Shown here piece by piece: positions 7,421-50,786 of a DNA stretch of 64,000 bases. The translations under genes were made by a program, and so were the position numbers. The number at the start of each line of letters is the position of its first letter. Within the stretch, counting starts at the first letter, position 1. The stretch is taken from assembly GCF_038002225.1 (NCBI RefSeq), contig NZ_JBBOCA010000001.1, positions 2,046,001 through 2,110,000 of the forward strand, read 5' to 3'. The notes below the pieces were generated by a model. That model made no database searches. It saw only the letters and a program-made list of their open reading frames with translations, and was not told the origin of the DNA. This DNA comes from Paenibacillus sp. FSL R7-0204. GTDB lineage: Bacteria > Bacillota > Bacilli > Paenibacillales > Paenibacillaceae.

Positions 7421-7588
7421 TGCCCATAATACAACATCTTCTTCCACCTAGCGGCCCTAACTCCAAATTGTTGTAGGAAAAGCAGGATTGTACGTAGTTC
7501 AAGCGCCTTGGCAAGAGAATTCCTGTATTTTATACATGATTTCACCAAATGCAAGGGGATCACATCCCTCGAAGCTGCACAACGTACA
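7421..7588. repeat. Array of four 13-bp TGYA-N5-TACA modules, period 51-52 bp
   Basis: Modules TGCCCATAATACA (7421), TGTAGGAAAAGCA (7472), TGTATTTTATACA (7524) and TGCACAACGTACA (7576) begin 51, 52 and 52 bp apart in the 420-bp gap between the GNAT gene and hrcA. Only the modules resemble one another; the intervening DNA does not. No credible gene is present here: the 78-codon reverse-strand frame at 7327-7563 has no ribosome site and no recognisable protein features. Related modules occur at 12749, 32594, 42302 and 50618. Confidence 0.55.
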
Positions 7589-7704: not shown

Positions 7705-7731
7705 TTAGCACTCATCTCACTAGAGTGCTAA
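7705..7731 (+). promoter_or_regulatory. CIRCE operator (HrcA binding site)
   Basis: The canonical inverted repeat TTAGCACTC (7705-7713), nine bases, GAGTGCTAA (7723-7731), with no mismatch to the consensus. HrcA represses class I heat-shock genes here when GroEL is free to fold it. Confidence 0.97.
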
Positions 7732-12748: not shown

Positions 12749-12812
12749 TGTATTTGCTGCAACAGAATATATATTAGGACGAATTAAAGGGGAATCTAAT
12801 GTAGCAAATGCA
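12749..12812. repeat. Pair of 13-bp palindromic modules 51 bp apart
   Basis: TGTATTTGCTGCA (12749-12761) and TGTAGCAAATGCA (12800-12812) are near-complements of each other and begin 51 bp apart, as in the other module regions of this window. The first also lies in an eight-base inverted repeat, TTCTGTTG/CAACAGAA (12743-12767). Confidence 0.45.
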
Positions 12813-31122: not shown

Positions 31123-32526
31123 TTGGCATCAGTAATTCTGGAACGCAACCGTAAAAAAAGACTGGAGCAGGGCCATCCATGGGTCTTCGCCAGTGAAGTA
31201 GCATCTGTAGACGGAGATCCGCAGCCAGGCGGACTGGTGGATGTTCTGACCCATCAGGGGCGGTACTTGGCTACCGGGTACTATAATCCGGCTTCGCAGA
31301 TCCGGGTAAGAATTCTGTCGCAGCACAAGCTGGCGGCGATGGACACGGCGTTTTTTGCACAGCGGTTCGAGGACTGTCTGCGGCACAGGGAACGCTTCCT
31401 GCCTGGGGCGGACGCTTATCGTCTGGTCTACGGGGAAGCGGATTTTCTGCCGGGGCTGATCATTGACCGCTTCGGTGAAGTCCTTGTGGTGCAGCTGCTG
31501 ACACTGGCTATGGATCAGCACCGCTCCGAGATTGTGGAGGCGCTGGTGCAGGTGGTGGCGCCGCGCGGCATCTATGAGCGCAGCGATGTCAGTGTGCGGG
31601 AGCTGGAGGGACTGGAACAGACCACGGGTGTGCTCTACGGCGAATGCCCGCGCCACATTACCGTAAGTGAGAACGGGCTGAAGGTCATCGTCGATATTGA
31701 AGAGGGGCAGAAGACTGGCTACTTCTTCGATCAGCGGGAGAACAGGGCGTCCATAGCTCCGCTGATGAAGGGTTGGGGCGGACGCAGCGGAATCACACTG
31801 CAGAGTATAGAGGCAGAGGACGGTACACTCCAGACGCTGCCAGTCAACAAAAGCGGCAAGCCGGTCTCCTTCCCGTACTGGGACGGTGCAACTGTCCTGG
31901 AATGCTTTGCGCATACAGGAAGCTTCACACTGCATGCCTGCAAGTATGGTGCCAAGAAGGTAACCTGCCTGGATGTATCCGCGCATGCCATCGAGAGTGC
32001 GAAGGCCAATGTGGAGATCAACGGGTTCAGCGACCGGGTGGAGTTCGTGGTAGATGATGCATTTGCTTTTCTGCGCAATCAGGTGAAGGGTCAGGAGGAA
32101 CGCACCGAGCGCGCTACGGGCGGCGCAGCGGCAGAAGGGAAAACCGCAAGCAAACCGGCTGCCAAGGCGGACACCGCGAAGCCGATGACCGCCGGGGGCG
32201 GACGCACGTGGGATGTCGTGATTCTGGACCCGCCTGCTTTTGCCAAGACCAAAAGTGCAGTGGCAGGTGCCGTACGCGGCTACAAGGACATCAATCTGCA
32301 GGGCATGAAGCTGGTGAATGACGGCGGATATCTGGTCACGGCCAGCTGTTCGTACCACATGCAGCCGCAGCTGTTCCTCGATACGATCATGGAAGCGGCC
32401 AAGGATGCCGGCAAGGTGCTGAGACTGATCGAATGGCGGGCCGCAGGCAAGGACCATCCGCAGATTCTCGGGGTGGACGAGGGGCATTATCTGAAGTTCG
32501 CCATCTTTGAGGTGCGCAGCAAATAG
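31123..32526 (+). CDS. Class I rRNA methyltransferase of the RlmI (m5C1962) type
   Basis: SAM-dependent cytosine-C5 methyltransferase family acting on 23S rRNA. About 467 residues: N-terminal PUA domain (RNRKKRLEQGHPWVFASEV), central EEHEE-like domain, then the Rossmann domain with ECFAHTGSFTLHACKYGA, the VILDPPAFAK motif and the ASCSY loop. Two insertions (about 218-255, and an Ala/Lys/Thr-rich stretch at about 324-361) make it some 70 residues longer than typical. TTG at 31123 lies nine bases after AGGGAG; TTG at 31114 would be too close. No analogue at this place in Bacillus. Confidence 0.85.
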   Translation: MASVILERNRKKRLEQGHPWVFASEVASVDGDPQPGGLVDVLTHQGRYLATGYYNPASQIRVRILSQHKLAAMDTAFFAQRFEDCLRHRERFLPGADAYRLVYGEADFLPGLIIDRFGEVLVVQLLTLAMDQHRSEIVEALVQVVAPRGIYERSDVSVRELEGLEQTTGVLYGECPRHITVSENGLKVIVDIEEGQKTGYFFDQRENRASIAPLMKGWGGRSGITLQSIEAEDGTLQTLPVNKSGKPVSFPYWDGATVLECFAHTGSFTLHACKYGAKKVTCLDVSAHAIESAKANVEINGFSDRVEFVVDDAFAFLRNQVKGQEERTERATGGAAAEGKTASKPAAKADTAKPMTAGGGRTWDVVILDPPAFAKTKSAVAGAVRGYKDINLQGMKLVNDGGYLVTASCSYHMQPQLFLDTIMEAAKDAGKVLRLIEWRAAGKDHPQILGVDEGHYLKFAIFEVRSK

Positions 32527-32593: not shown

Positions 32594-32770
32594 TGTATTT
32601 GGTACAGTTAAAAGGCAGCCCAAAACCAGAATAGCTGCGATAGCTGCATTCTGTACAATTATAATTGGCTCGGAGTACTTTTGGAGGTGAAAGCCGGATT
32701 TTTAGTTGCAGAGGATACACTTAAACCTGTTAAAGCGCCATTTTGGCCGCTTTTAGTTGTACCAAATACA
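32594..32770. repeat. Four-module palindromic element A (177 bp)
   Basis: Modules: TGTATTTGGTACA (32594), TGCATTCTGTACA (32645), TGCAGAGGATACA (32707), TGTACCAAATACA (32758). The first is followed by GTTAAAA; the last two are preceded by TTTTAGT, so the ends form 20-bp terminal inverted repeats with two mismatches (32594-32613 against 32751-32770). Offsets 0/51/113/164 are identical to element B at 42302. The rest of this gap (32771-32978) holds a C-rich stretch at about 32788-32882 and the start region of the permease gene, and no gene. Confidence 0.75.
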
Positions 32771-32978
32771 CCTAAGCACAAAATCAGCCCCAGTCCCGCC
32801 CGTTGCGCCGAACGACCTTGCCACCCGCCCGAGTCCCGCGCCCGCCGCGCCGACCCGATCTCGCCTGCTCGCCCCCCAGCTCAGTAACATCCTCCCCTTT
32901 CAATAGTTGATTTCCCTATCCCGGCAGCGAAGGCGTTCCCTCTATAATCAAGGTACAGATTCTAAGGGGGGCCGTTAT

Positions 32979-33869
32979 ATGAAACAGAAAAAAATACATG
33001 CCTACGTCTTTGTATTTCCCAGTTTGTTCCTGACCCTGGTGTTCGGCATCTATCCTCTGCTGTGGGCCTTACGGTATATGTTCTATGACTATCAGGGGTT
33101 TGGGACGCCTGTATTTATCGGCCTCGATAACTTCGGGCGGGTGCTGCGCGACCATCAGTTCTGGTCTTCTGTCGGCAATACCGGGATCTATGCGCTCGGC
33201 AAGCTTGTGGTGACGATTCCGATGTCGCTGCTGCTGGCGATTATCCTGAACCGCAAAATGAAGGGGCGTTCCTTCCTGCGGGCGATTTATTATCTGCCTA
33301 CGATTTTCAGTGCTTCGGTGATGGCGATTGTCTTCTTCATTATTTTCAACTCCTATAACGGTATCTTGAATCAGCTGCTGATCCGCTTCCATATCATCAG
33401 CGAGCCGATTGGCTGGCTTAGCGCCGACCATGCCATGATGACCACCATCATTATTGCTATCTGGGGTGCGGTCGGTAACTATATGCTGTTGTTCCTCGCG
33501 GGACTCCAAGGCATTCCGAATGATCTGTACGAAGCGGCCTCGCTGGACGGGGCGAATGAATTCCAGAAGCTGAAGAATGTGACCATCCCGCTGCTGGGAC
33601 CGGTGATGCAGATGATTATCATGCTGGCGATCACCATCTCGCTGAAGGGCTATGAGAGCATTATGGTGCTGACCGAAGGCGGGCCGTATGGCAAAACAGA
33701 AGTCATGTATCTGTACCTGTTCAAGCTCCTATTCCCGGTATCGGCGGAAGCACAGTCCATCCAGCAGCTCGGCTATGGCAGTGCAGTCGGCTTCACCACG
33801 GCGGTCATTGTGGGCGGTGTGACGCTGGTCTACTTCCGGATCTCCAAGAAATTAAACGATGTGTACTAG
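32979..33869 (+). CDS. Sugar ABC transporter permease (MalF/UgpA type)
   Basis: 296-residue CUT1-family inner-membrane permease with six hydrophobic segments. The EAA loop, which contacts the ATPase, reads EAASLDGANEFQKLKNVTIP. AGGGGG before the ATG at 32979 decides the start. It is the first gene of the putative uronate-oligosaccharide locus; the second permease begins 21 bases later. No ATPase gene follows, so the importer must borrow one, as MsmX-dependent systems do. Confidence 0.93.
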   Translation: MKQKKIHAYVFVFPSLFLTLVFGIYPLLWALRYMFYDYQGFGTPVFIGLDNFGRVLRDHQFWSSVGNTGIYALGKLVVTIPMSLLLAIILNRKMKGRSFLRAIYYLPTIFSASVMAIVFFIIFNSYNGILNQLLIRFHIISEPIGWLSADHAMMTTIIIAIWGAVGNYMLLFLAGLQGIPNDLYEAASLDGANEFQKLKNVTIPLLGPVMQMIIMLAITISLKGYESIMVLTEGGPYGKTEVMYLYLFKLLFPVSAEAQSIQQLGYGSAVGFTTAVIVGGVTLVYFRISKKLNDVY

Positions 33870-33890
33870 AACCGACAGGAGGAGAGCAGA

Positions 33891-34760
33891 ATGAATAACA
33901 CCCATACCCGTTCCGCCATGTCCCCGCTGCTAACCCGCTCGCTCGGCAAGGCTGTGCTCTGGATCTTTCTAATTGCGGCCGCCCTGCTGGCCTTGTTCCC
34001 GATCATCATGGTCGTGCTGGGCTCGTTCAAGACGAACCAGGAGCTGACCGGGAGTGCAACCATTTGGCCGAAAAGCTGGCATTTCTCGAACTACCTGGAA
34101 GCGTGGAGGAACGCCAATTTCTCCCGCTACACGCTGAACAGTATATTTGTAAGCGTGGCCACCACTGTAGGCACCTTGCTGGTTGCTTCGATGTCTGCCT
34201 ATGCGGTAAACCGGGTTTCTTTTATCGGCAAAAAAGCATACTCCCTGCTCATGGCCTCAACGCTGTTCATCTCGATCGGGGCCGTGGTGCTGCGTCCGCA
34301 ATTTGACCTAATGGTGATGCTCGGCCTGAACAAGACGCTCTGGGGCGTCATTATTATCCTGATCAGCGCCCATGCCACCTGTTATTTCATCTTAATCGGC
34401 TTCTTCCAGAGCATTCCGCGCGACCTGGACGAAGCGGCGATGATCGATGGCTGCAACTTCTACTCTGTCTACCTGCGTATCATCCTGCCGATGCTGCGGC
34501 CTGCGCTGGCGGTTGCCGGGCTGGGGGCATTCCAGGGGTCCTGGAATGAATATATTCTGCCGCTGGTCTTCACGATGAGCAATCCCCAGCTTCAGACGCT
34601 TCCGGTCGGGCTGGCGAATCTGCGCTACGGAATCGGAGCGGCGTCAGAGGTACAGCTGATGATGGCCGGCGCATGCCTGTCCATTTTGCCGCTGCTGGTG
34701 GTCTATGTGTTCGCCAACAAATCCTTCATGCAGGTCACGCTCGGCGCCGTCAAAGGGTAG
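33891..34760 (+). CDS. Sugar ABC transporter permease (MalG/UgpE type)
   Basis: 289-residue partner permease of the CUT1 family. The EAA loop is EAAMIDGCNFYSVYLRIILP, and the C-terminal end (ANKSFMQVTLGAVKG) is typical of MalG-like subunits. GGAGGAG lies before the ATG. It forms a heterodimeric channel with the product of the preceding gene. Confidence 0.93.
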   Translation: MNNTHTRSAMSPLLTRSLGKAVLWIFLIAAALLALFPIIMVVLGSFKTNQELTGSATIWPKSWHFSNYLEAWRNANFSRYTLNSIFVSVATTVGTLLVASMSAYAVNRVSFIGKKAYSLLMASTLFISIGAVVLRPQFDLMVMLGLNKTLWGVIIILISAHATCYFILIGFFQSIPRDLDEAAMIDGCNFYSVYLRIILPMLRPALAVAGLGAFQGSWNEYILPLVFTMSNPQLQTLPVGLANLRYGIGAASEVQLMMAGACLSILPLLVVYVFANKSFMQVTLGAVKG

Positions 34761-34824
34761 TCCCGGAAAGAGTAGTGTTCCGCCCGCACTGTTGTTACAA
34801 TGGGTTGCAAGGAGTGGTTCACGG

Positions 34825-36579
34825 ATGAAACTCGGTTTCTACAAGCAGTCTTTGAAGAAAAGAATTCAGGTGCTGTACATCTTCCTCGCCATTCTCTGCA
34901 TCAGTGTAACGGGAGTCTGCTCGTATCTCTTCGCGGCGCGCAGCATTCAAGGCAGTGCACTTGAGCTGAAGCAAAGCATTCTGAACAAATCGGTTCAGGT
35001 GATGGACGAGCACCTCCGGCATATCGTGGTCTCTTCGTATTCCTTTATGCTGGGTGAGAGCTTCGGGCAGGCGATGAAGGATGTCAGCAACAATAATTCC
35101 GCTCATTATTATCAGAATCTGTCGCTGCTGCAGACTTCTTTTGACCAGCTTAAGCTGGTGGAGCCGCTGATTGATGCGTCCTATCTCAGTACGCCGATTG
35201 GGGATTTTTACTCCACTAAGGATTTCCCCGACCGGAAGACCAACTTCATGGAGAAGTATGGAAGCTATCTGGAGCAGCCGGGTTGGAATACCCTGTGGCT
35301 GGGGGCGCATAGAAGCGAGCTGTTTCAGTCGAAGGGCCGGGTCCTCTCGCTGCTGCTGAAGCCAACGGTGATTGACAATCATAATTTCCCGAACGTCTAT
35401 ATGGTTGTGAACATGAAGGAGGAGGCGATGAGGTCTATCCTGGAGCAGGATCTGATGAATAATCAGGTTCAGCTCTTTTTGCTGCACAAGGATGGATCGA
35501 TGGTTATCCGGCCGGAGACGCAGAACTACGCGTTCAATACGGAGCAGAATTTCGTCAGCCGGTTCAACCAAGGGACGGCTGGCGATTTCAACTATATCAA
35601 TACCAAAGGTGAGGAGCTGCTCGTCAATTACAGCACGCTGTCGATGAATGAGGACTGGATCATGGTCAGCATTCAATCCAAAGCAGACCTGCTGCAGCCG
35701 CTGAAGCAGATCCGCTGGCTGATCTTCTGGATTATGCTGATCTGTACCGTGGTCGCGCTGGCCTTGTCTAACCTGCTCGCCTCTGCACTGCTGGGGCCGC
35801 TCAACAAGCTGCAGCGCCTGATGGTGGAGGTAGAGTATAACGATCTGGATGTGCGGTTTCAGAGCCGGTATGAGGATGAGGTGAGCGCCGTCGGCCATAA
35901 GTTCAACCGGATGCTGGACCAGATTCAGGTTCTGATTCAGGAGGTGCGGACCTCGGAGCAGGAGAAGCGCAAGTCGGAGGTCAAGGCGTTACAGGCGCAG
36001 GTGGACCCTCATTTCTTATACAACACGCTGAATACGATCTTCTGGAAAAGCGAGAATGGCGAGAAAAGCGATGTCAGCGAGATGATCGTGGCCTTGTCGC
36101 TCCTCTTCCGCCTGGGGCTGAACAACGGAAACGATATTACGACCCTCCAGCAGGAGGTCCAGCATGTCCGGCAGTATTTGCAGCTCCAGCAGAAGTGTTA
36201 TGAGAATCTGTTCACCTATACGATTGAAGTGGAGGATGACGCCTATTTGTCCATCAGGATGTTGAAGATTCTGCTTCAGCCACTGGTGGAAAATTCAATC
36301 CTGCACGGCTTCCGCGACAAAGCGGAGCTAGGCACGATTGAGATCCGCATCTACCGCGCTGCCGGATTCCTGATCCTGCGGGTCACGGACAACGGCTGCG
36401 GCATGGATGCCACTCAGCTTGCGAATGCGGTAAATGGCAACGAAGCGGAGCGCAGGGGATATGCCTTGTCCAACCTGCGCAGCAGGCTCAGCCTGCATTA
36501 CGGTGAATCCGCATCGATTGCCTTCAGCAGCATTCCCGATATTGCTACAACTGTAACCGTCACGATACCGATCCTCTAG
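34825..36579 (+). CDS. YesM-type sensor histidine kinase
   Basis: 584 residues. Membrane helix (about 16-38), extracellular sensor region (about 40-290), second helix (about 298-320), HAMP linker, then the His_kinase domain with the phospho-acceptor His396 in QVDPHFLYNTLN, and an HATPase_c domain (N box LLQPLVENSILHGF, G1 VTDNGCGMD). YesM kinases in Bacillales respond to polysaccharide breakdown products and control nearby uptake genes. AAGGAG at 34809 supports ATG 34825. Its response regulator follows nine bases after its stop. Confidence 0.93.
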   Translation: MKLGFYKQSLKKRIQVLYIFLAILCISVTGVCSYLFAARSIQGSALELKQSILNKSVQVMDEHLRHIVVSSYSFMLGESFGQAMKDVSNNNSAHYYQNLSLLQTSFDQLKLVEPLIDASYLSTPIGDFYSTKDFPDRKTNFMEKYGSYLEQPGWNTLWLGAHRSELFQSKGRVLSLLLKPTVIDNHNFPNVYMVVNMKEEAMRSILEQDLMNNQVQLFLLHKDGSMVIRPETQNYAFNTEQNFVSRFNQGTAGDFNYINTKGEELLVNYSTLSMNEDWIMVSIQSKADLLQPLKQIRWLIFWIMLICTVVALALSNLLASALLGPLNKLQRLMVEVEYNDLDVRFQSRYEDEVSAVGHKFNRMLDQIQVLIQEVRTSEQEKRKSEVKALQAQVDPHFLYNTLNTIFWKSENGEKSDVSEMIVALSLLFRLGLNNGNDITTLQQEVQHVRQYLQLQQKCYENLFTYTIEVEDDAYLSIRMLKILLQPLVENSILHGFRDKAELGTIEIRIYRAAGFLILRVTDNGCGMDATQLANAVNGNEAERRGYALSNLRSRLSLHYGESASIAFSSIPDIATTVTVTIPIL

Positions 36580-36588
36580 GAGGCTGCC

Positions 36589-38196
36589 ATGAACCCATTG
36601 ACCCTGTGTGTAATGGATGATATTCAGACTGTCGTCAAAGGAATTGCTTCAACGATCCCGTGGGCGGATCATGGAATCGAGGTGGCGGGGACCGCCGGCA
36701 ACGGTGAGCAGGGCTGGGAACTGCTGCTGGAGAAGGACCCCGACATCGTTATCAGCGATATCCGTATGCCGAAGCTCAGCGGACTTGAGCTCATGAAAAG
36801 AGCTGCCGAAGCGAAGCTGCGCGCCAAATTTATATTCATCAGCGGGTATTCGGATTTCAGCTATGCTCAGGAGGCGATCAAGCTGGGCGCGTCCAACTAT
36901 CTGCTGAAGCCGTTCACCCAGCCGGAGATTGTGGACGCTGTGCTGAAGGTGAAGCAGACTATTGAAGAAGAGCGGGCGAGAGCAGAGCAGATACAGCAAA
37001 TGGAGCAGAAGATGGTAGCCAGCCGTTCCCAGCTCCGCCAGGATTATCTCACAGCCCTGCTGCGCCAGGAGACCAATATCAGCCTGTGTGACAGCCGCTG
37101 GAAGGAGCTGGGCATCGACCTGGATGCCGGCAATCTGCTGGTGATGGCTATTGAGCTGGACTGTTATACCGAATACGGGTACACCCTGCATCTGGATGAC
37201 AGTGAAATCATTCCCTTTGCGATCAAGAACATATTGGAAGAGACACTGAGAATGCACACACGCGGAGTTGTACTGCGCGAGAGCAGACAGCGTCTGGCTG
37301 CGATCTTTAGTCCGCCGGACGCTATGGATACGTTGGAGCTGCTGGAGCTGTGCCGTGAGAATGTGGAGAAATACAGCAAGAATACTGTTTCGATCGGCCT
37401 TGGCACAGCGGCACGGGGACCGCGTGAGATCCGGGCTTCTTTCGTGCATGCGGCCAAAGCGCTGGCCTATCGCTTTTACAGTGAGGGGAACTGTATCTTC
37501 CGCTTCACGGAGCTTGACCCGGAGAACCGCGCAGCCCCGGACTATCCTGAGGAGAAGGTGAAGGAGCTGCTGTACGCGCTCAAATCCGGCAATGAAGAAG
37601 GCTGTCATGAGATCATCGGCGAGATCTTCCGGCAGTGGACCCTCTCCGGCAGATATCCTGATCCGCTGTCGATGGTCCGTCTGTTGTCCGGGCTGACCTT
37701 CGCTATGTACCGGGCATTCTGTGATGAAATCACGGAGGAGGAGCGCATACAGCTGGAGGCTGACCTGACGGCGCTGGAGGAGAACCGTTCTTTAACCTTT
37801 GGCGGCTGGAAAAGCTATATCAATCATTTCGCCAGCATGGGCTGTGAATTCGTCGATAGCAAGCAGTTCCGCGATGTAACACAGTCCATTAACCGGGCCA
37901 GAGAATATATCCGGCTGCATCTGGAGGAGAATCTGACCCTGAACAGCTGCGCGCAGGCCGTCCATCTGAGCCCGAGCTATTTCGCAGGCGCCTTCAAGAA
38001 GGAGACCGGCATGACGCTGATTCAGTATATTACCAAGCTGCGGATGGAGCGGGCGAAGGAGCTGCTGATTGCCGGGGCGCAGGTGCAGGAGATTTCCCTG
38101 ATGCTCGGCTATGAGGACCGCCCTTATTTCAGCGGCCTGTTCAAAAAATACTGCGGACTTACGCCCACAGCGTTCCGGCAGAAATACCTGAAATAA
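36589..38196 (+). CDS. YesN-type response regulator with AraC DNA-binding domain
   Basis: 535 residues. The receiver domain has the acidic pair Asp10/Asp11, phospho-acceptor Asp57 (VISDIRMPK) and Lys107 (YLLKPF). A variable central region (about 130-420) leads to a C-terminal AraC-type double helix-turn-helix (about 435-535; LNSCAQAVHLSPSYFAGAFK and EISLMLGYEDRPYFSGLFKK). It is expected to activate the binding-protein gene downstream when phosphorylated by the adjacent kinase. Confidence 0.94.
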   Translation: MNPLTLCVMDDIQTVVKGIASTIPWADHGIEVAGTAGNGEQGWELLLEKDPDIVISDIRMPKLSGLELMKRAAEAKLRAKFIFISGYSDFSYAQEAIKLGASNYLLKPFTQPEIVDAVLKVKQTIEEERARAEQIQQMEQKMVASRSQLRQDYLTALLRQETNISLCDSRWKELGIDLDAGNLLVMAIELDCYTEYGYTLHLDDSEIIPFAIKNILEETLRMHTRGVVLRESRQRLAAIFSPPDAMDTLELLELCRENVEKYSKNTVSIGLGTAARGPREIRASFVHAAKALAYRFYSEGNCIFRFTELDPENRAAPDYPEEKVKELLYALKSGNEEGCHEIIGEIFRQWTLSGRYPDPLSMVRLLSGLTFAMYRAFCDEITEEERIQLEADLTALEENRSLTFGGWKSYINHFASMGCEFVDSKQFRDVTQSINRAREYIRLHLEENLTLNSCAQAVHLSPSYFAGAFKKETGMTLIQYITKLRMERAKELLIAGAQVQEISLMLGYEDRPYFSGLFKKYCGLTPTAFRQKYLK

Positions 38197-38263
38197 GCAG
38201 GAACTGAAGGAACAGGGACAAGCATTTTTCCCCCCTTACAAAGTTAGAATGTCCCTCACCCCA

Positions 38264-38291
38264 CTGAAAGCGGAACCATTATGATTATGTT
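38264..38291 (+). promoter_or_regulatory. Possible promoter of the binding-protein gene
   Basis: CTGAAA (38264-38269), 16 bp, TATGTT (38286-38291). Weak match to sigma-A consensus, as expected for an activator-dependent promoter in the 145-base gap after the regulator gene. No YesN operator could be defined. Confidence 0.35.
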
Positions 38292-38341
38292 AACAGATAG
38301 CCGATTGCAGGCTGTCAGGACAAGCACAAGGGGGCATAACG

Positions 38342-39760
38342 ATGGATAAAAAATGGGTTGTTGCAACAATGAGTACAGTGCTGGCACTAAGTCTGGCCGG
38401 CTGCGCTGCCGACAGCAATAAGGAGCCCGCGGCAAGTAACAGCAAACCGGCGGACGTCAAGGGAGACAACGGGGCAGCAAGCGGCGGCAAAACCAAAATC
38501 CTCTACTGGACACCCGACCGTCACGACGCCGATTTCATGAAATCAAAGATTGATGAGTTCAACAAGACGAACAAGGATAACATCGAAGTGGAAATGACCG
38601 TGATGGGGGATAATTATCCGCAGGCGGTAGATATCGCTTTTGCCAGTAAACAGGCTCCTGATGTGCTTCAGATTAACGACTTCCAGACCTATTATAAAAA
38701 AGGCTACATGGCCCCGATCAATGACTATATGAGCAGCGAGATGAAGGAGACCTTCAAGGATAGCCTGCTGGAGAACAAGAACACCGTGGACGGCAAGACC
38801 TATACCCTGCCCAACACCGGACAGATCTGGAGACTGATCTATAATAAAGATATCTTCAAGCAAGCGGGCATTGAGAATCCGCCGAAAACACTGGATGAGA
38901 TGGTTGCTGCCGCCAAAAAGATTACCGAAACCGGCAAAAAGGACGGCGTATACGGCTTCGCCAGCCCGTTCAAGAGCTCCAGCGGCTTCTGGCGTGCATC
39001 CAATACCGTAGCAGGCGCGAGCAACAATACCGGCATTGACGGCTACAATTACAAGACCGGCCAATTCGACTTCAGCATGTACAAGGATATTGCACTGGCC
39101 CTGCGTCAGATGAACGAAGACGGCAGCATGCTGCCGGGCGTAGAGAGCCTGGATATCGATCCGCTGCGTGCGCAGTTCGCCCAAGGCAAAATCGGCATGT
39201 ACATTAACCACTCCGCAGAGCCCGGCGTCTACAAAGACCAGTTCCCGACTACCGCCAATTGGGCTGCCGTTGCTGTACCGACTACAGACGGAACGATTAA
39301 GGGCGCATCGCAGATCATCGGCGGCTCCTACATCGGCATCAGCGCGGACAGCACGCACAAGGAAGCAGCGTGGAAGTTCATGGAGTATGTGTACAGCGAC
39401 AGCCTGCAGAGCGAATATTATGAAAAAGGCTACGGCATCTCCCTGATCCCTACAGTCATCAGCTCCGGCAAAAAACCAAGCATTCCCGGCATTGAAGGCT
39501 TCCTGCCGAAGCGTTATGACGCGATTTACCCGGCGAACCCGCTTACCATTACAGAAGGGTCACTGGAGGGCAGCAAATGGAGCGATGCTTTCTCCGTCTT
39601 CGTCTTCACTGGTGGAGATGTGGACAGCATTATCAAGGATCTGGACACCCGGTATAATGCTTCACTAGAGAAAGCAAGAGCCTCCGGCGCAACGGATATT
39701 GTAGCCGATCCAAGCTTTGACGCATCGAAGCTGCAGGGTAAATTATCCACCGAAGAATAA
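38342..39760 (+). CDS. Extracellular sugar-binding lipoprotein (SBP family 1)
   Basis: 472-residue substrate-binding protein of the CUT1 ABC importer. The lipobox LSLAGC places the lipid-modified Cys at residue 21; a Ser/Lys/Gly-rich tether follows, then a two-lobe SBP_bac_1 fold (TKILYWTPDRHDADFMKSKI onward). AGGGGG lies before the ATG. Downstream of the YesM/YesN genes that likely control it. The ligand is inferred to be a uronic-acid oligosaccharide from the two following genes, not from the binding protein itself. Confidence 0.92.
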   Translation: MDKKWVVATMSTVLALSLAGCAADSNKEPAASNSKPADVKGDNGAASGGKTKILYWTPDRHDADFMKSKIDEFNKTNKDNIEVEMTVMGDNYPQAVDIAFASKQAPDVLQINDFQTYYKKGYMAPINDYMSSEMKETFKDSLLENKNTVDGKTYTLPNTGQIWRLIYNKDIFKQAGIENPPKTLDEMVAAAKKITETGKKDGVYGFASPFKSSSGFWRASNTVAGASNNTGIDGYNYKTGQFDFSMYKDIALALRQMNEDGSMLPGVESLDIDPLRAQFAQGKIGMYINHSAEPGVYKDQFPTTANWAAVAVPTTDGTIKGASQIIGGSYIGISADSTHKEAAWKFMEYVYSDSLQSEYYEKGYGISLIPTVISSGKKPSIPGIEGFLPKRYDAIYPANPLTITEGSLEGSKWSDAFSVFVFTGGDVDSIIKDLDTRYNASLEKARASGATDIVADPSFDASKLQGKLSTEE

Positions 39761-39778
39761 GAGGTAAGGTTCAGGCGG

Positions 39779-39812
39779 GCGGCCGATGCTTGATCGATTC
39801 GGCCGCTTTCTT
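39779..39812 (+). terminator. Attenuator hairpin between the binding-protein gene and the cupin gene
   Basis: GCGGCCGA (39779-39786) and TCGGCCGC (39799-39806) are perfect complements, followed by TTTCTTGT. Partial termination here would make the binding protein more abundant than the enzymes. Confidence 0.65.
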
Positions 39813-39838
39813 GTCTAATAGAGAGGAGCAGACCCGAA

Positions 39839-40174
39839 ATGATTATAGAGAATAGAGAAGCCGCAAAGACGGTTCTGAATGAGAGCACTTCCCGCACCCT
39901 GCTTGCAAAGGGGGGCTCGATGATGATGGTGGAGGTTACCTTCGCCAAAGGCGGCATCGGAGAGGTTCATTCCCATGATGCGCATGAGCAGATCAGCTAT
40001 ATTGTGAAGGGCAGCTTTGAGGTCAAGGTCGGGGAGGAGACGCGTATTCTGAAGGCGGGCGACAGCTTCTATGCCGGCTATAATATTCCGCATGGTGTGA
40101 AGGCGCTGGAGGATTCCGTGATTCTGGATGTGTTCAATCCGTTCCGTGAGGATTTTTTGGAGAAGCAGGAATGA
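39839..40174 (+). CDS. KdgF-like cupin
   Basis: 111-residue single cupin. The metal-binding motif is HSHDAHEQISY...E with the second His in YNIPHGVKAL, and the C-terminus LDVFNPFREDFLE is the KdgF signature. KdgF opens the unsaturated ring of uronates released by pectin or alginate lyases to give the linear keto sugar. GAGGAG at 39822 precedes the ATG. Its last four bases overlap the lyase gene, so the two are translated together, which supports a shared pathway. Confidence 0.85.
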   Translation: MIIENREAAKTVLNESTSRTLLAKGGSMMMVEVTFAKGGIGEVHSHDAHEQISYIVKGSFEVKVGEETRILKAGDSFYAGYNIPHGVKALEDSVILDVFNPFREDFLEKQE

Positions 40175-42159
40175 AGGATTATTACCTGAGTGCATCTGAG
40201 CTCCGCAGTGCTGCCGCTTATTATGCCCGCCAATTCCCCATCGAGGCTCAGAACTCAATACAGATTGCTGAGCATGCCGTGGACAATGAATTCATTGTTC
40301 CTTATACCGGCGATCTGAGCCGCTGGATTCCGCTGGGCAGGCCGGTGGCGGACTGGCTGCATAATCCTACGAACGATCCCGAATTCACCTGGGGCATTAA
40401 CCGCCACTGGCATATGCTGGATCTGGGCAAGGGCTATCTGATGAATGGCAAGCCGGAATACGTTACGGCCTTTATCCAGCATTTCCGCAGCTGGCGCGAG
40501 CAGAACCCGATTCCTGTGATCCCGTCGTATGAGGAAGCGGTGTTTTTCCAGAAGCTGGGTCCTTGGCGTCTGCTGGAGACCGGCCTGCGCGTGCAGTCCT
40601 GGATCTCTGCTTACAAATATATGGAGGACAGCCCGCTGCTGGACGAGAGCTTCCGGGGCGAGCTGCTGGAGGGGCTAGCGGAGCATGCTGAATTCCTGAC
40701 CCAATACCTCGGCAGCACGGAGATTAATCATGCCATTATGCATATGCAAGGCCTCTACATGATTGCTGTCTTCCATCACGGGCATCCGCGTGCACCGTAT
40801 TGGCGGCAGCTGGCCGGGGAGCGTCTGGAGCTGTGCCTCTTGCATCAGGTCGGGCTGGAAGGGATTCAGATTGAGCTGACCACCCATTATCATGATGCGG
40901 CCATTGAGATGTTCGGGACGCCTTATCTGCTGGGCGCGTTATGCGGTCACCCGTTCTCTGCCTGGTACGGCGGACAGCTCCGCAAGATGGCCGCGTTCAC
41001 CGAAGCGCTGGTCCGCCCGGATCACCAGTCCACCGGGATCGGAGATTCCGACTGGATCAGCAGCGGCAGGCAGCGGCTGACGCTGCTGGGTGCTATTCTG
41101 AAGGATGATGCGCTGATTGGACGCGGTACAAGGAGCGCGGAATGTCTCTGGCTGCTGGGAGCCGAGGCATATGAGCGGTGTGTGCAGCTTCAGGCGGAGT
41201 CTGCGCCTTCGGTGAGCAGCGTGGCTTTTGTGCAGACCGGATATTATGTGATGCGGGACCCGCAGCAGTATCTGTTCTTCGATGCCGCAGAGATGGGCGG
41301 AGCGCACGGCCATGCGGATGCGCTGAATCTGGAGTGGATGTGGAATGGGCAATTGCTCTTCACGGATACCGGCCGTTACACGTACGAGGAAGGGAAATGG
41401 CGCCGTTATTTCAAAAGTACCCGCGCGCACAACACCATCACCGTAGACGGGTTGGATCAGACGCCGTATATCTCGACCCAGCAATGGGGCGAGCCTGTGG
41501 CTAAGGCCAGCACCTTCCGCTGGGAGAGCAACAGCCGTTACCACTTCATCGATGCGGCTCATGACGGATACATCCGTCTTCCCGGTCCGGTAATGCACCG
41601 GCGCTGGGTGCTGCTGGGCGTGGAGGTGCCGCTGCTGCTGATTGCCGACTGGCTGGAGGCGGATGGCGAGCATGAGCTGGAGCAGCGGTTCCATCTGCAC
41701 CCGGAAGCGGTGCTGGAGCTGTCTTGCGAAGCCGGAGCGGCTGGAGAGGCTGGAGAGGCAGTGAGCGGAGCCGGAGAACCCGAAGCCGGAGCTGCACAGC
41801 CTACAGCAACCGTGGTCTATCCCGGCTCTACAGTGAAGCTGAATATGAGCTGGATGACCAGCGGTCTGAAGGATGAGCAGTTCACGGTGGGTAAGGAGCA
41901 GGGCTGGGTATCGGAAGTATACGGCTCTAAATCGGAGATTCCGGTAGTAGAGGGCCGGGCGGCTTGGGCCGGCAAGGCTGGAATTCTGACGCTGTGCCTG
42001 CCCGAAGATGCAGCGGACGGCAGCGGTCCGCTGCACGTGAGCACCTGTGTGGTGGATGCGGAGCGGCGGCGGGTCGAGCTGTCCTATGTATACGGAGAAG
42101 CGATCGGCACAATTGTAATCGGAACAGACACCCTAGGCTGGACGGAGCGGAAGGAATAA
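40171..42159 (+). CDS. Heparinase II/III-family polysaccharide lyase
   Basis: 662 residues and no signal peptide, so it is probably cytoplasmic and acts on imported oligosaccharides. The alpha-toroid domain fills about 1-340 (WGINRHWHMLDLGKGYLMNG; EINHAIMHMQGLYMIAVF), followed by the heparinase II/III beta-sandwich with GGAHGHADALNLEW and DTGRYTYEEGKWRRYFKST. His and Tyr residues are placed as in catalytic sites of the clan. A 25-residue Ala/Gly/Glu insert lies near 525-545. It cleaves uronic-acid glycosidic bonds by beta-elimination; the exact substrate (heparinoid, alginate, glucuronan or other) cannot be read. Confidence 0.87.
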   Translation: MKDYYLSASELRSAAAYYARQFPIEAQNSIQIAEHAVDNEFIVPYTGDLSRWIPLGRPVADWLHNPTNDPEFTWGINRHWHMLDLGKGYLMNGKPEYVTAFIQHFRSWREQNPIPVIPSYEEAVFFQKLGPWRLLETGLRVQSWISAYKYMEDSPLLDESFRGELLEGLAEHAEFLTQYLGSTEINHAIMHMQGLYMIAVFHHGHPRAPYWRQLAGERLELCLLHQVGLEGIQIELTTHYHDAAIEMFGTPYLLGALCGHPFSAWYGGQLRKMAAFTEALVRPDHQSTGIGDSDWISSGRQRLTLLGAILKDDALIGRGTRSAECLWLLGAEAYERCVQLQAESAPSVSSVAFVQTGYYVMRDPQQYLFFDAAEMGGAHGHADALNLEWMWNGQLLFTDTGRYTYEEGKWRRYFKSTRAHNTITVDGLDQTPYISTQQWGEPVAKASTFRWESNSRYHFIDAAHDGYIRLPGPVMHRRWVLLGVEVPLLLIADWLEADGEHELEQRFHLHPEAVLELSCEAGAAGEAGEAVSGAGEPEAGAAQPTATVVYPGSTVKLNMSWMTSGLKDEQFTVGKEQGWVSEVYGSKSEIPVVEGRAAWAGKAGILTLCLPEDAADGSGPLHVSTCVVDAERRRVELSYVYGEAIGTIVIGTDTLGWTERKE

Positions 42160-42204
42160 GCATGTTGTGCTGGAAGTTATTAAAGATCAAGGATATTAGC
42201 AGAT

Positions 42205-42250
42205 AAGACTTCTCCGCTGGCCGTTTTCCGGCTGCGGGGAGTCTTATTTC
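42205..42250 (+). terminator. Terminator of the uronate locus
   Basis: AAGACTTCTCCGC (42205-42217) pairs with GCGGGGAGTCTT (42234-42245), followed by ATTTCTATT. Confidence 0.7.
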
Positions 42251-42301
42251 TATTGGAGAATTTTTGGGTTTCATTGCAAAGTAGATTGCGATAGGCTTAA
42301 A

Positions 42302-42478
42302 TGCACTTTGTACAACTAAAACATCCGATGTCTAATCGATTACCTGTTTAGGTGTATTTCGTACATTAAAATATTTACGTATTGCCGGTTCTAGCCTCTT
42401 TGGGCAGATTTAGTTGCACAGACTACAGCTATACCAGAAAAGTATGCTTTTTCGCTGCTTTTAAGTGTACAATTATCC
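42302..42478. repeat. Four-module palindromic element B (177 bp)
   Basis: Modules: TGCACTTTGTACA (42302, then ACTAAAA), TGTATTTCGTACA (42353, then TTAAAA), TGCACAGACTACA (42415, after TTTAGT) and a degenerate TGTACAATTATCC (42466, after TTTTAAG). Offsets 0/51/113/164 equal those of element A although the spacers differ. The remaining DNA to addB (42479-42735) holds a hairpin and the addB leader, with no gene. Confidence 0.75.
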
Positions 42479-42552
42479 CTGTCTTGTCCTTCACTTGGGA
42501 GGAGTTGCAGCAGTAACTGTTAGACTTGAGACCTAATTTACATGATTTGTTC

Positions 42553-50617: not shown

Positions 50618-50786
50618 TGTACTTATTACAGCTTGGGTGTAGACATTGCTGCGTGTTGGATCGGATTGCTGTATGAAATACAAGAATAGCTCTTTACATC
50701 GGCCTGAAACAGGGGGAATGCTGCTTTTCTTGCAACAATTTCAGTATAAGAACGCTTCTTAGCGCAGGAAGGTTGTATTTCATGCA
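50618..50786. repeat. Four-module palindromic element C (diverged)
   Basis: TGTACTTATTACA (50618), TGTATGAAATACA (50670), a degenerate TGCAACAATTTCA (50731) and TGTATTTCATGCA (50774): offsets 0/52/113/156. The second and fourth modules with flanks form an inverted repeat (50669-50683 against 50773-50787, one mismatch). Lies in the 534-base gap between addA and sbcD, where I see no gene. Confidence 0.55.

Follow-up and report, generated by a model that had tools for sequence, protein, structure and literature searches.

A two-fold symmetric four-module DNA element with helically phased spacers in Paenibacillus and related genera

Introduction

Subirana and Messeguer (PMC8161180) described tandem repeats of 52 nucleotides, constant in size and variable in sequence, from Bacillus and other Firmicutes. 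According to the passages of that paper cited here, such repeats are especially abundant in Paenibacillus; no function is obvious for them, and a polymerising protein was considered by the authors. REPINs, as described in the cited part of PMC3116915, are extragenic; their inverted palindromes enclose a spacer that is less conserved, and a genome has several sequence groups of them. The RAYT-type REPINs have two REPs, hairpin-forming spacers and compensatory changes. Multi-dimer discs or rings that were proposed to wrap DNA, and that were likened to nucleosome-like binding, are described for Lrp/AsnC proteins (LrpC) and RemA octamers (PMC8481266, in the part cited here).

Here we describe a four-module element from Paenibacillus sp. 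FSL R7-0204, analysed in a window of 64,000 nucleotides (the whole stretch of DNA under study) and in other genomes. The literature search yielded no paper describing such an element; a 2020 paper on bacterial tandem repeats, which possibly treats Paenibacillus, lay outside its scope. As far as the cited passages of PMC8161180 go, the elements are similar to the 52-nt repeats in their step of 51–53 bp and variable sequence, and in the presence of several families per species with partial conservation from strain to strain. The step and the variable sequence are found in the outer steps of class I elements and in all steps of class II elements. Unlike the 52-nt repeats, class I elements are not tandem, but single dispersed units of four modules with a 62-bp central step and two-fold symmetry. 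Head-to-tail repetition of at least four copies of one unit is not seen in class I, where the spacers are unlike each other and the centre is 62 bp, and no 51–53 bp tandem array was found in the window. The extragenic position, the inverted palindromes around less conserved spacers and the several sequence groups per genome are shared with REPINs (PMC3116915, cited part), from which the elements differ by four modules, little covariation, helical phase and the lack of a link to a Y1 transposase.

Results

The window contains two class I elements, both with steps of 51, 62 and 51 bp. All four modules of element 1 (32594..32770; T-type), starting at 32594, 32645, 32707 and 32758, match the pattern TGYA-N5-TACA in 8 of 8 positions. 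In element 2 (42302..42478; T-type arms as judged by eye) this holds for the modules at 42302, 42353 and 42415; the fourth (42466, TGTACAATTATCC) is decayed and scores 5/8, even with A or G accepted at the eleventh base. The description given in an earlier note, four modules at relative positions 0/51/113/164 in both copies, is therefore exact for element 1 and too generous for element 2, where three of four modules are intact. Two further arrays form class II. One (50618..50786) has modules at 50618, 50670, 50722 and 50774 with steps of 52/52/52 bp and scores of 8, 8, 7 and 8; the other (7421..7588) has modules at 7421, 7472, 7524 and 7576 with steps of 51/52/52 bp and scores of 7, 7, 8 and 8. 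A half class I element with C-type arms, two modules with a 51 bp step, is located at 12749..12812; its other half is absent, and a terminator-like hairpin adjoins it.

The 8-base pattern has 26 strand matches in the window, modules fitting both strands being counted twice, compared with 1.73 expected (sd 1.46; maximum 7 in 100 shuffles), which bears out the earlier claim that it clusters where about two matches would arise by chance. The four-module scores are 32/32 for element 1, 29 for element 2, 30 for the array at 7421 and 31 for that at 50618. The best score per window in 20 block-shuffled windows was 20–23/32, these windows being scored on two geometries and the real window on four.

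Element 1 lies immediately past a terminator-like hairpin, downstream of an ORF ending at 32526. Element 2 is located between an ORF ending at 42159 and a long ORF starting at 42526, which we take from its translation to be addB-like. The class II element at 7421–7588 is followed by the start of a presumably hrcA-like gene; ahead of this start, about 120 bp after the element, we observed an inverted repeat (TTAGCACTC...GAGTGCTAA, 7705–7731) that we assume to be CIRCE-like. The block 32594–42540 between the two class I elements, with ORFs that we take from their translations to be ABC-permease-, sensor/regulator- and heparinase-like, is missing in three relatives (G479, G480 and G481), and in G479 its break falls inside element 1.

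Genome searches confirmed that the elements of the window are real and that the family extends far beyond two copies. With exact spacing and at most three mismatches, the four-module pattern has 37 forward and 36 reverse matches in the host genome (7.71 Mb) and the reversed pattern has 0 and 0, so that the spaced profile exceeds chance; module pairs alone gave 59/62 matches versus 2/2 in the control. In the genus, 51 of 100 genomes have four-module matches, with up to 78 copies, and the remaining 49 have none; the control gave 0 in all 100. Matches in the order were found in 49 of 246 genomes and in 11 of 46 genera, while the control matched none of the 246 genomes; further half-site types are present among the matches listed from the other genera. 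A phylum-spread sample gave matches in 3 of 398 genomes, all three Paenibacillus; the genus-only distribution that this suggested was overturned by the matches in 11 genera of the order. A scan of named genomes retrieved at least 120 stretches, and the 80 titles listed comprise 79 from Paenibacillus and one Paenibacillaceae metagenome assembly. One 241-base query around element 1 had no blastn match in phages and plasmids.

The consensus of 196 unique elements is two-fold symmetric. As most of these elements were retrieved with the exact pattern, the spacing within them does not test the geometry independently. Each module has six near-invariant core bases and two Y/R positions, and forms a palindrome of about 27 bp in which N5 is framed by two arms of about 11 bp. 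Conservation extends about 4 bp beyond the element ends. The arms fall into T (TACA-NY-TA), C (TACA-NY-AG and similar) and other types. All six inner half-sites are of one type in 171 of the 196 elements, compared with 10 expected if they were independent, the copies being related. Of the 37 host copies, 27 were read: 22 have half-sites of C type only and 4 of T type only, and one is mixed.

The spacers have no common sequence; instead, they show an alternation of A+T and G+C that recurs about every 10 bp. With modules and arms masked, the A/T phase of the 196 elements reaches a best power of 0.63 over periods of 9.8–11.0, compared with at most 0.005 in 300 shuffles, and is strongest near 10; when the modules are left in, 10.2 gives the highest power among the tried periods. 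An AAAG...CTTTT fold before the last module, which was noted as possible in the two window copies, is not a family-wide feature, as the respective columns hold only the helix-phased A/T preference. Steps are 51/62/51 bp in class I and 51–52 bp throughout in class II.

Two loci selected on the host genome alone were used for a comparison of orthologous elements, and the 30 best-matching genomes read for each represent the nearer part of the genus. The first locus is the gap between the genes for an ABC-transporter ATPase and an ABC-3 permease, which we read as znuC-znuB-like; the second is the gap ahead of a pyridine-nucleotide-disulphide oxidoreductase gene, in our reading lpd-like. Where both genes were found, the element is present in 24 of 29 znuC-znuB-like gaps and 8 of 26 lpd-like gaps, counting recognisable copies with at least 28/32 core matches and allowing one-base gap changes. 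One more of the 29 gaps (L295) has a decayed copy with 24/32, and class II-like arrays occupy 3 of the 26 lpd-like gaps. The spacing is exactly 51/62/51 in 28 of the 35 elements found at the two loci.

The largest group of similar elements in the znuC-znuB-like gaps comprises 10 genomes. Of 1080 comparisons of the six core bases in each module, 9 show a difference, and these 9 go back to a single change in L290; spacer differences amount to 1313 of 3726 (35.2%), arm differences to 13.7% and differences at the Y/R positions to 18.6%. The lpd-like cluster (8 genomes) has 0 of 672 differences in the cores, 659 of 2324 (28.4%) in the spacers, 16.2% in the arms and 9.8% in the Y/R positions. Flank differences amount to 31.4% at the first locus (7 of the 10 genomes) and 29.2% at the second (8 genomes). 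Near-invariant cores beside spacers that differ by 35% and 28% argue for selection on the modules in place. In 29 ortholog pairs, identity is 94.5% in the core, 71.1% in the spacer and 70.6% in the flank; the pairs were chosen with both members intact, and 29 of 33 with flank identity of at least 60% were pooled. Core change was 13.9% when L286, L288 and L299 were aligned, since one of these elements is of a different type from the other two and was forced onto them. The earlier proposal of selection on geometry with free spacers is thus supported by exact spacing in many copies with controls at zero, by the ortholog cores and by the spacer periodicity of about 10 bp.

Among 25 elements in znuC-znuB-like gaps, 21 have 8/8 in every module and four have one imperfect module. 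They form nine sequence clusters of both types, from which we infer that this gap was filled more than once. Turnover is also seen between close relatives: G445 and G462 lack the element at 42302 and G441 has a truncated copy of it, while G481 has no element in the lpd-like gap and G480 has a different one in the znuC-znuB-like gap. A host subfamily includes about ten copies that are 78–90% alike over about 190–235 bp, three of them over more. Nine copies from P. phytorum, related isolates and two further records are alike only to a few bases past their ends; two pairs in this group share longer flanks and are exceptions to these sharp bounds. The earlier note had offered a very old mobile repeat as an alternative, and this is partly right in that copies disperse, are lost and are replaced. 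The two window copies are not one recent transposon copy, since their spacers are unlike.

No general target duplication was found in 196 elements, where the longest shared flank words are like those of shuffled pairs; a 13-bp near-repeat lies next to the element at one locus. A TA target duplication was rejected: the TA flanks appear type-dependent, and the excess of TA at the ends is ascribed to the outer half-site bases, because the AAT type has TT there. An autonomous transposon was also rejected, as the gene-bearing split element that we followed up turned out to be interrupted in module 3 by an IS. This IS (L255:8440–10279) has a DUF772/DDE_Tnp_1 transposase and ends GGAGACAATTTCATAATTCA, and the element that it interrupts is one of the host genome. 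A four-module element lies inside a longer repeat (about 700 bp; inverted ends, CTATATA...) in L148, L155, L204, L231, L243 and L253; three of the six are from P. tepidiphilus, and L253 is without the left part.

On crude ORF calls, 150 of 198 placed elements lie between two ORFs (52 convergent, 73 tandem and 25 divergent); element-free gaps of at least 200 bp (n = 178) are 32 convergent, 93 tandem and 53 divergent. A further 28 elements are at a locus edge, and 26 overlap an ORF of at least 100 codons, six of these also being at an edge. Clustering of 747 flanking ORFs, with the loci used for ortholog comparisons excluded, revealed no recurrent neighbour gene, the largest cluster having four members.

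Discussion

The four-module element probably provides a frame for several dimers of a DNA-binding protein, on which the DNA is bent or wrapped. Each palindromic module of about 27 bp would bind one dimer, and steps of 5, 6 and 5 helical turns would place the four dimers on one face of the helix, as the earlier note had supposed for the modules. The DNA between the dimers would be bent or wrapped into a compact particle and would need of its sequence only A/T and G/C in alternating phase. At gene ends such a particle may serve as an architectural or insulating node; fast loss and replacement are not readily compatible with an essential host role. The discs or rings of Lrp/AsnC (LrpC) and RemA would suit the phased sites. 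Of the wrapping families, Lrp/AsnC and RemA-like proteins were tested; both occur in all 100 genomes of the genus sample, with or without elements, and so their presence does not discriminate.

The main rival to a protein-binding frame is a population of selfish, non-autonomous repeats of REPIN or MITE type that keeps its sites, the modules being sites of a transposase-like protein and multiplication being confined to copies whose modules and spacing are intact. As the copies spread and are lost, a REPIN-like origin is conceivable, and it would account for the host subfamily of similar copies, the sharp bounds in the P. phytorum group, the differences in presence between close relatives and the copies enclosed in the 700-bp-type repeat. 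It is harder to reconcile with cores that are conserved in place in old orthologs while the spacers are free, and neither a general target duplication nor a recurrent neighbour gene was found; a RAYT link was rejected, since 23 of the 51 element-bearing genomes of the genus have no match to the Y1 (RAYT-type) transposase family PF01797. We regard a selfish origin as rather unlikely. Much less probable still is a set of synaptic or accessory sites for a serine or tyrosine site-specific recombinase that needs whole-turn spacing: no gene family recurs beside the copies and the loci compared give no sign of precise exchange, despite the two-fold symmetric palindromes at 51–52 bp and the 32.6–42.5 kb block missing in three relatives with one break inside an element. 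TGTC...GACA ends in several Bacillus 52-nt consensi, which we take to resemble Tn3-type resolvase sites, also point in the direction of a recombinase.

A structured RNA, with three hairpins closed by an outer stem, is the most improbable of the readings weighed here. The module arms could pair in each unit, and with the half-site type unfixed the outer unit has 4.93 pairs of 7 versus 3.91 expected. Once the type is fixed, a slight excess is left in the T-type outer unit (2.28 versus 2.04 expected of 4 pairs), but the C-type outer unit is barely above expectation (2.51 versus 2.43) and the middle unit is below it (2.01 versus 2.35; C type, 2.35 versus 2.51). Hairpins with compensatory changes are thus not seen apart from that slight excess in the T-type outer unit, and the window has no Rfam match at the gathering threshold. 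One half-site type per element together with little further pairing makes the target look like duplex DNA read by several protein specificities, which would be expected for the T, C and other types under the protein-binding frame.

The protein-binding frame may also bear on the constant-length Bacillus repeats. With 300 shuffles per consensus and p values left uncorrected, 14 of 27 Bacillus 52-nt consensi contain a palindrome at p<0.05; two of these 14 are near-identical, and 13 of the palindromes are odd-centred. The other 13 consensi have no significant palindrome. The power of the 27 consensi at five A/T cycles per repeat is 0.114; shuffles averaged 0.039 and did not exceed 0.065. The value at five cycles was reached in 0 of 2000 shuffles, is the peak among the harmonics listed and is the largest harmonic in 9 of the 27. 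This five-cycle phase is a result of the present analysis and does not appear in the cited passages of PMC8161180. Eleven of twelve Paenibacillus arrays, one having been dropped for its consensus length, gave a similar value for 51/52-bp repeats (0.127; 0 of 2000 shuffles; largest in 5 of 11), some of the arrays being related. The principle common to the two forms would be that each protein dimer takes up five helical turns of bendable DNA.

It is possible, though doubtful, that all these sequences are a bacterial counterpart of nucleosome-positioning elements, in which a DNA-wrapping family has fast-diverging base contacts (T, C, AAT and other types) and a geometry fixed across the order, with the Bacillus 52-nt satellites as its open-ended polymer form. 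Four dimers would then occupy about 177 bp, at a phase of about 10.1–10.3 bp per turn. The four-module elements may thus explain the puzzling constant length of the Bacillus repeats by a readable rule, in which palindromes stand at whole-turn distances along the helix and spacers are constrained in bendability phase only. The unexplained 52-nt repeats become directly testable, both as to which protein binds them and as to whether a half-turn shift breaks binding, and the elements suggest a site-specific DNA-organising system in Paenibacillus relatives.

Among 275 sequences, 51 and 8 are the commonest array periods. Six TGYA-N5-TACA modules at exact 51 bp steps are present at L074:1766–2033, and this array is a link between the modules and the satellites. 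In arrays of 49–54 bp the best dyad is even-centred in 12 of 13, unlike the N5 of the modules. Tandem arrays of 51 bp were observed at L103:39–504, L129:2731–3170, L184:2756–2936 and L214:390–732; their palindromes are AATCAAGGGCA-N4-TGCCCTTGATT and ATGTAATCGG-N4-CCGATTACAT, or variants of these.
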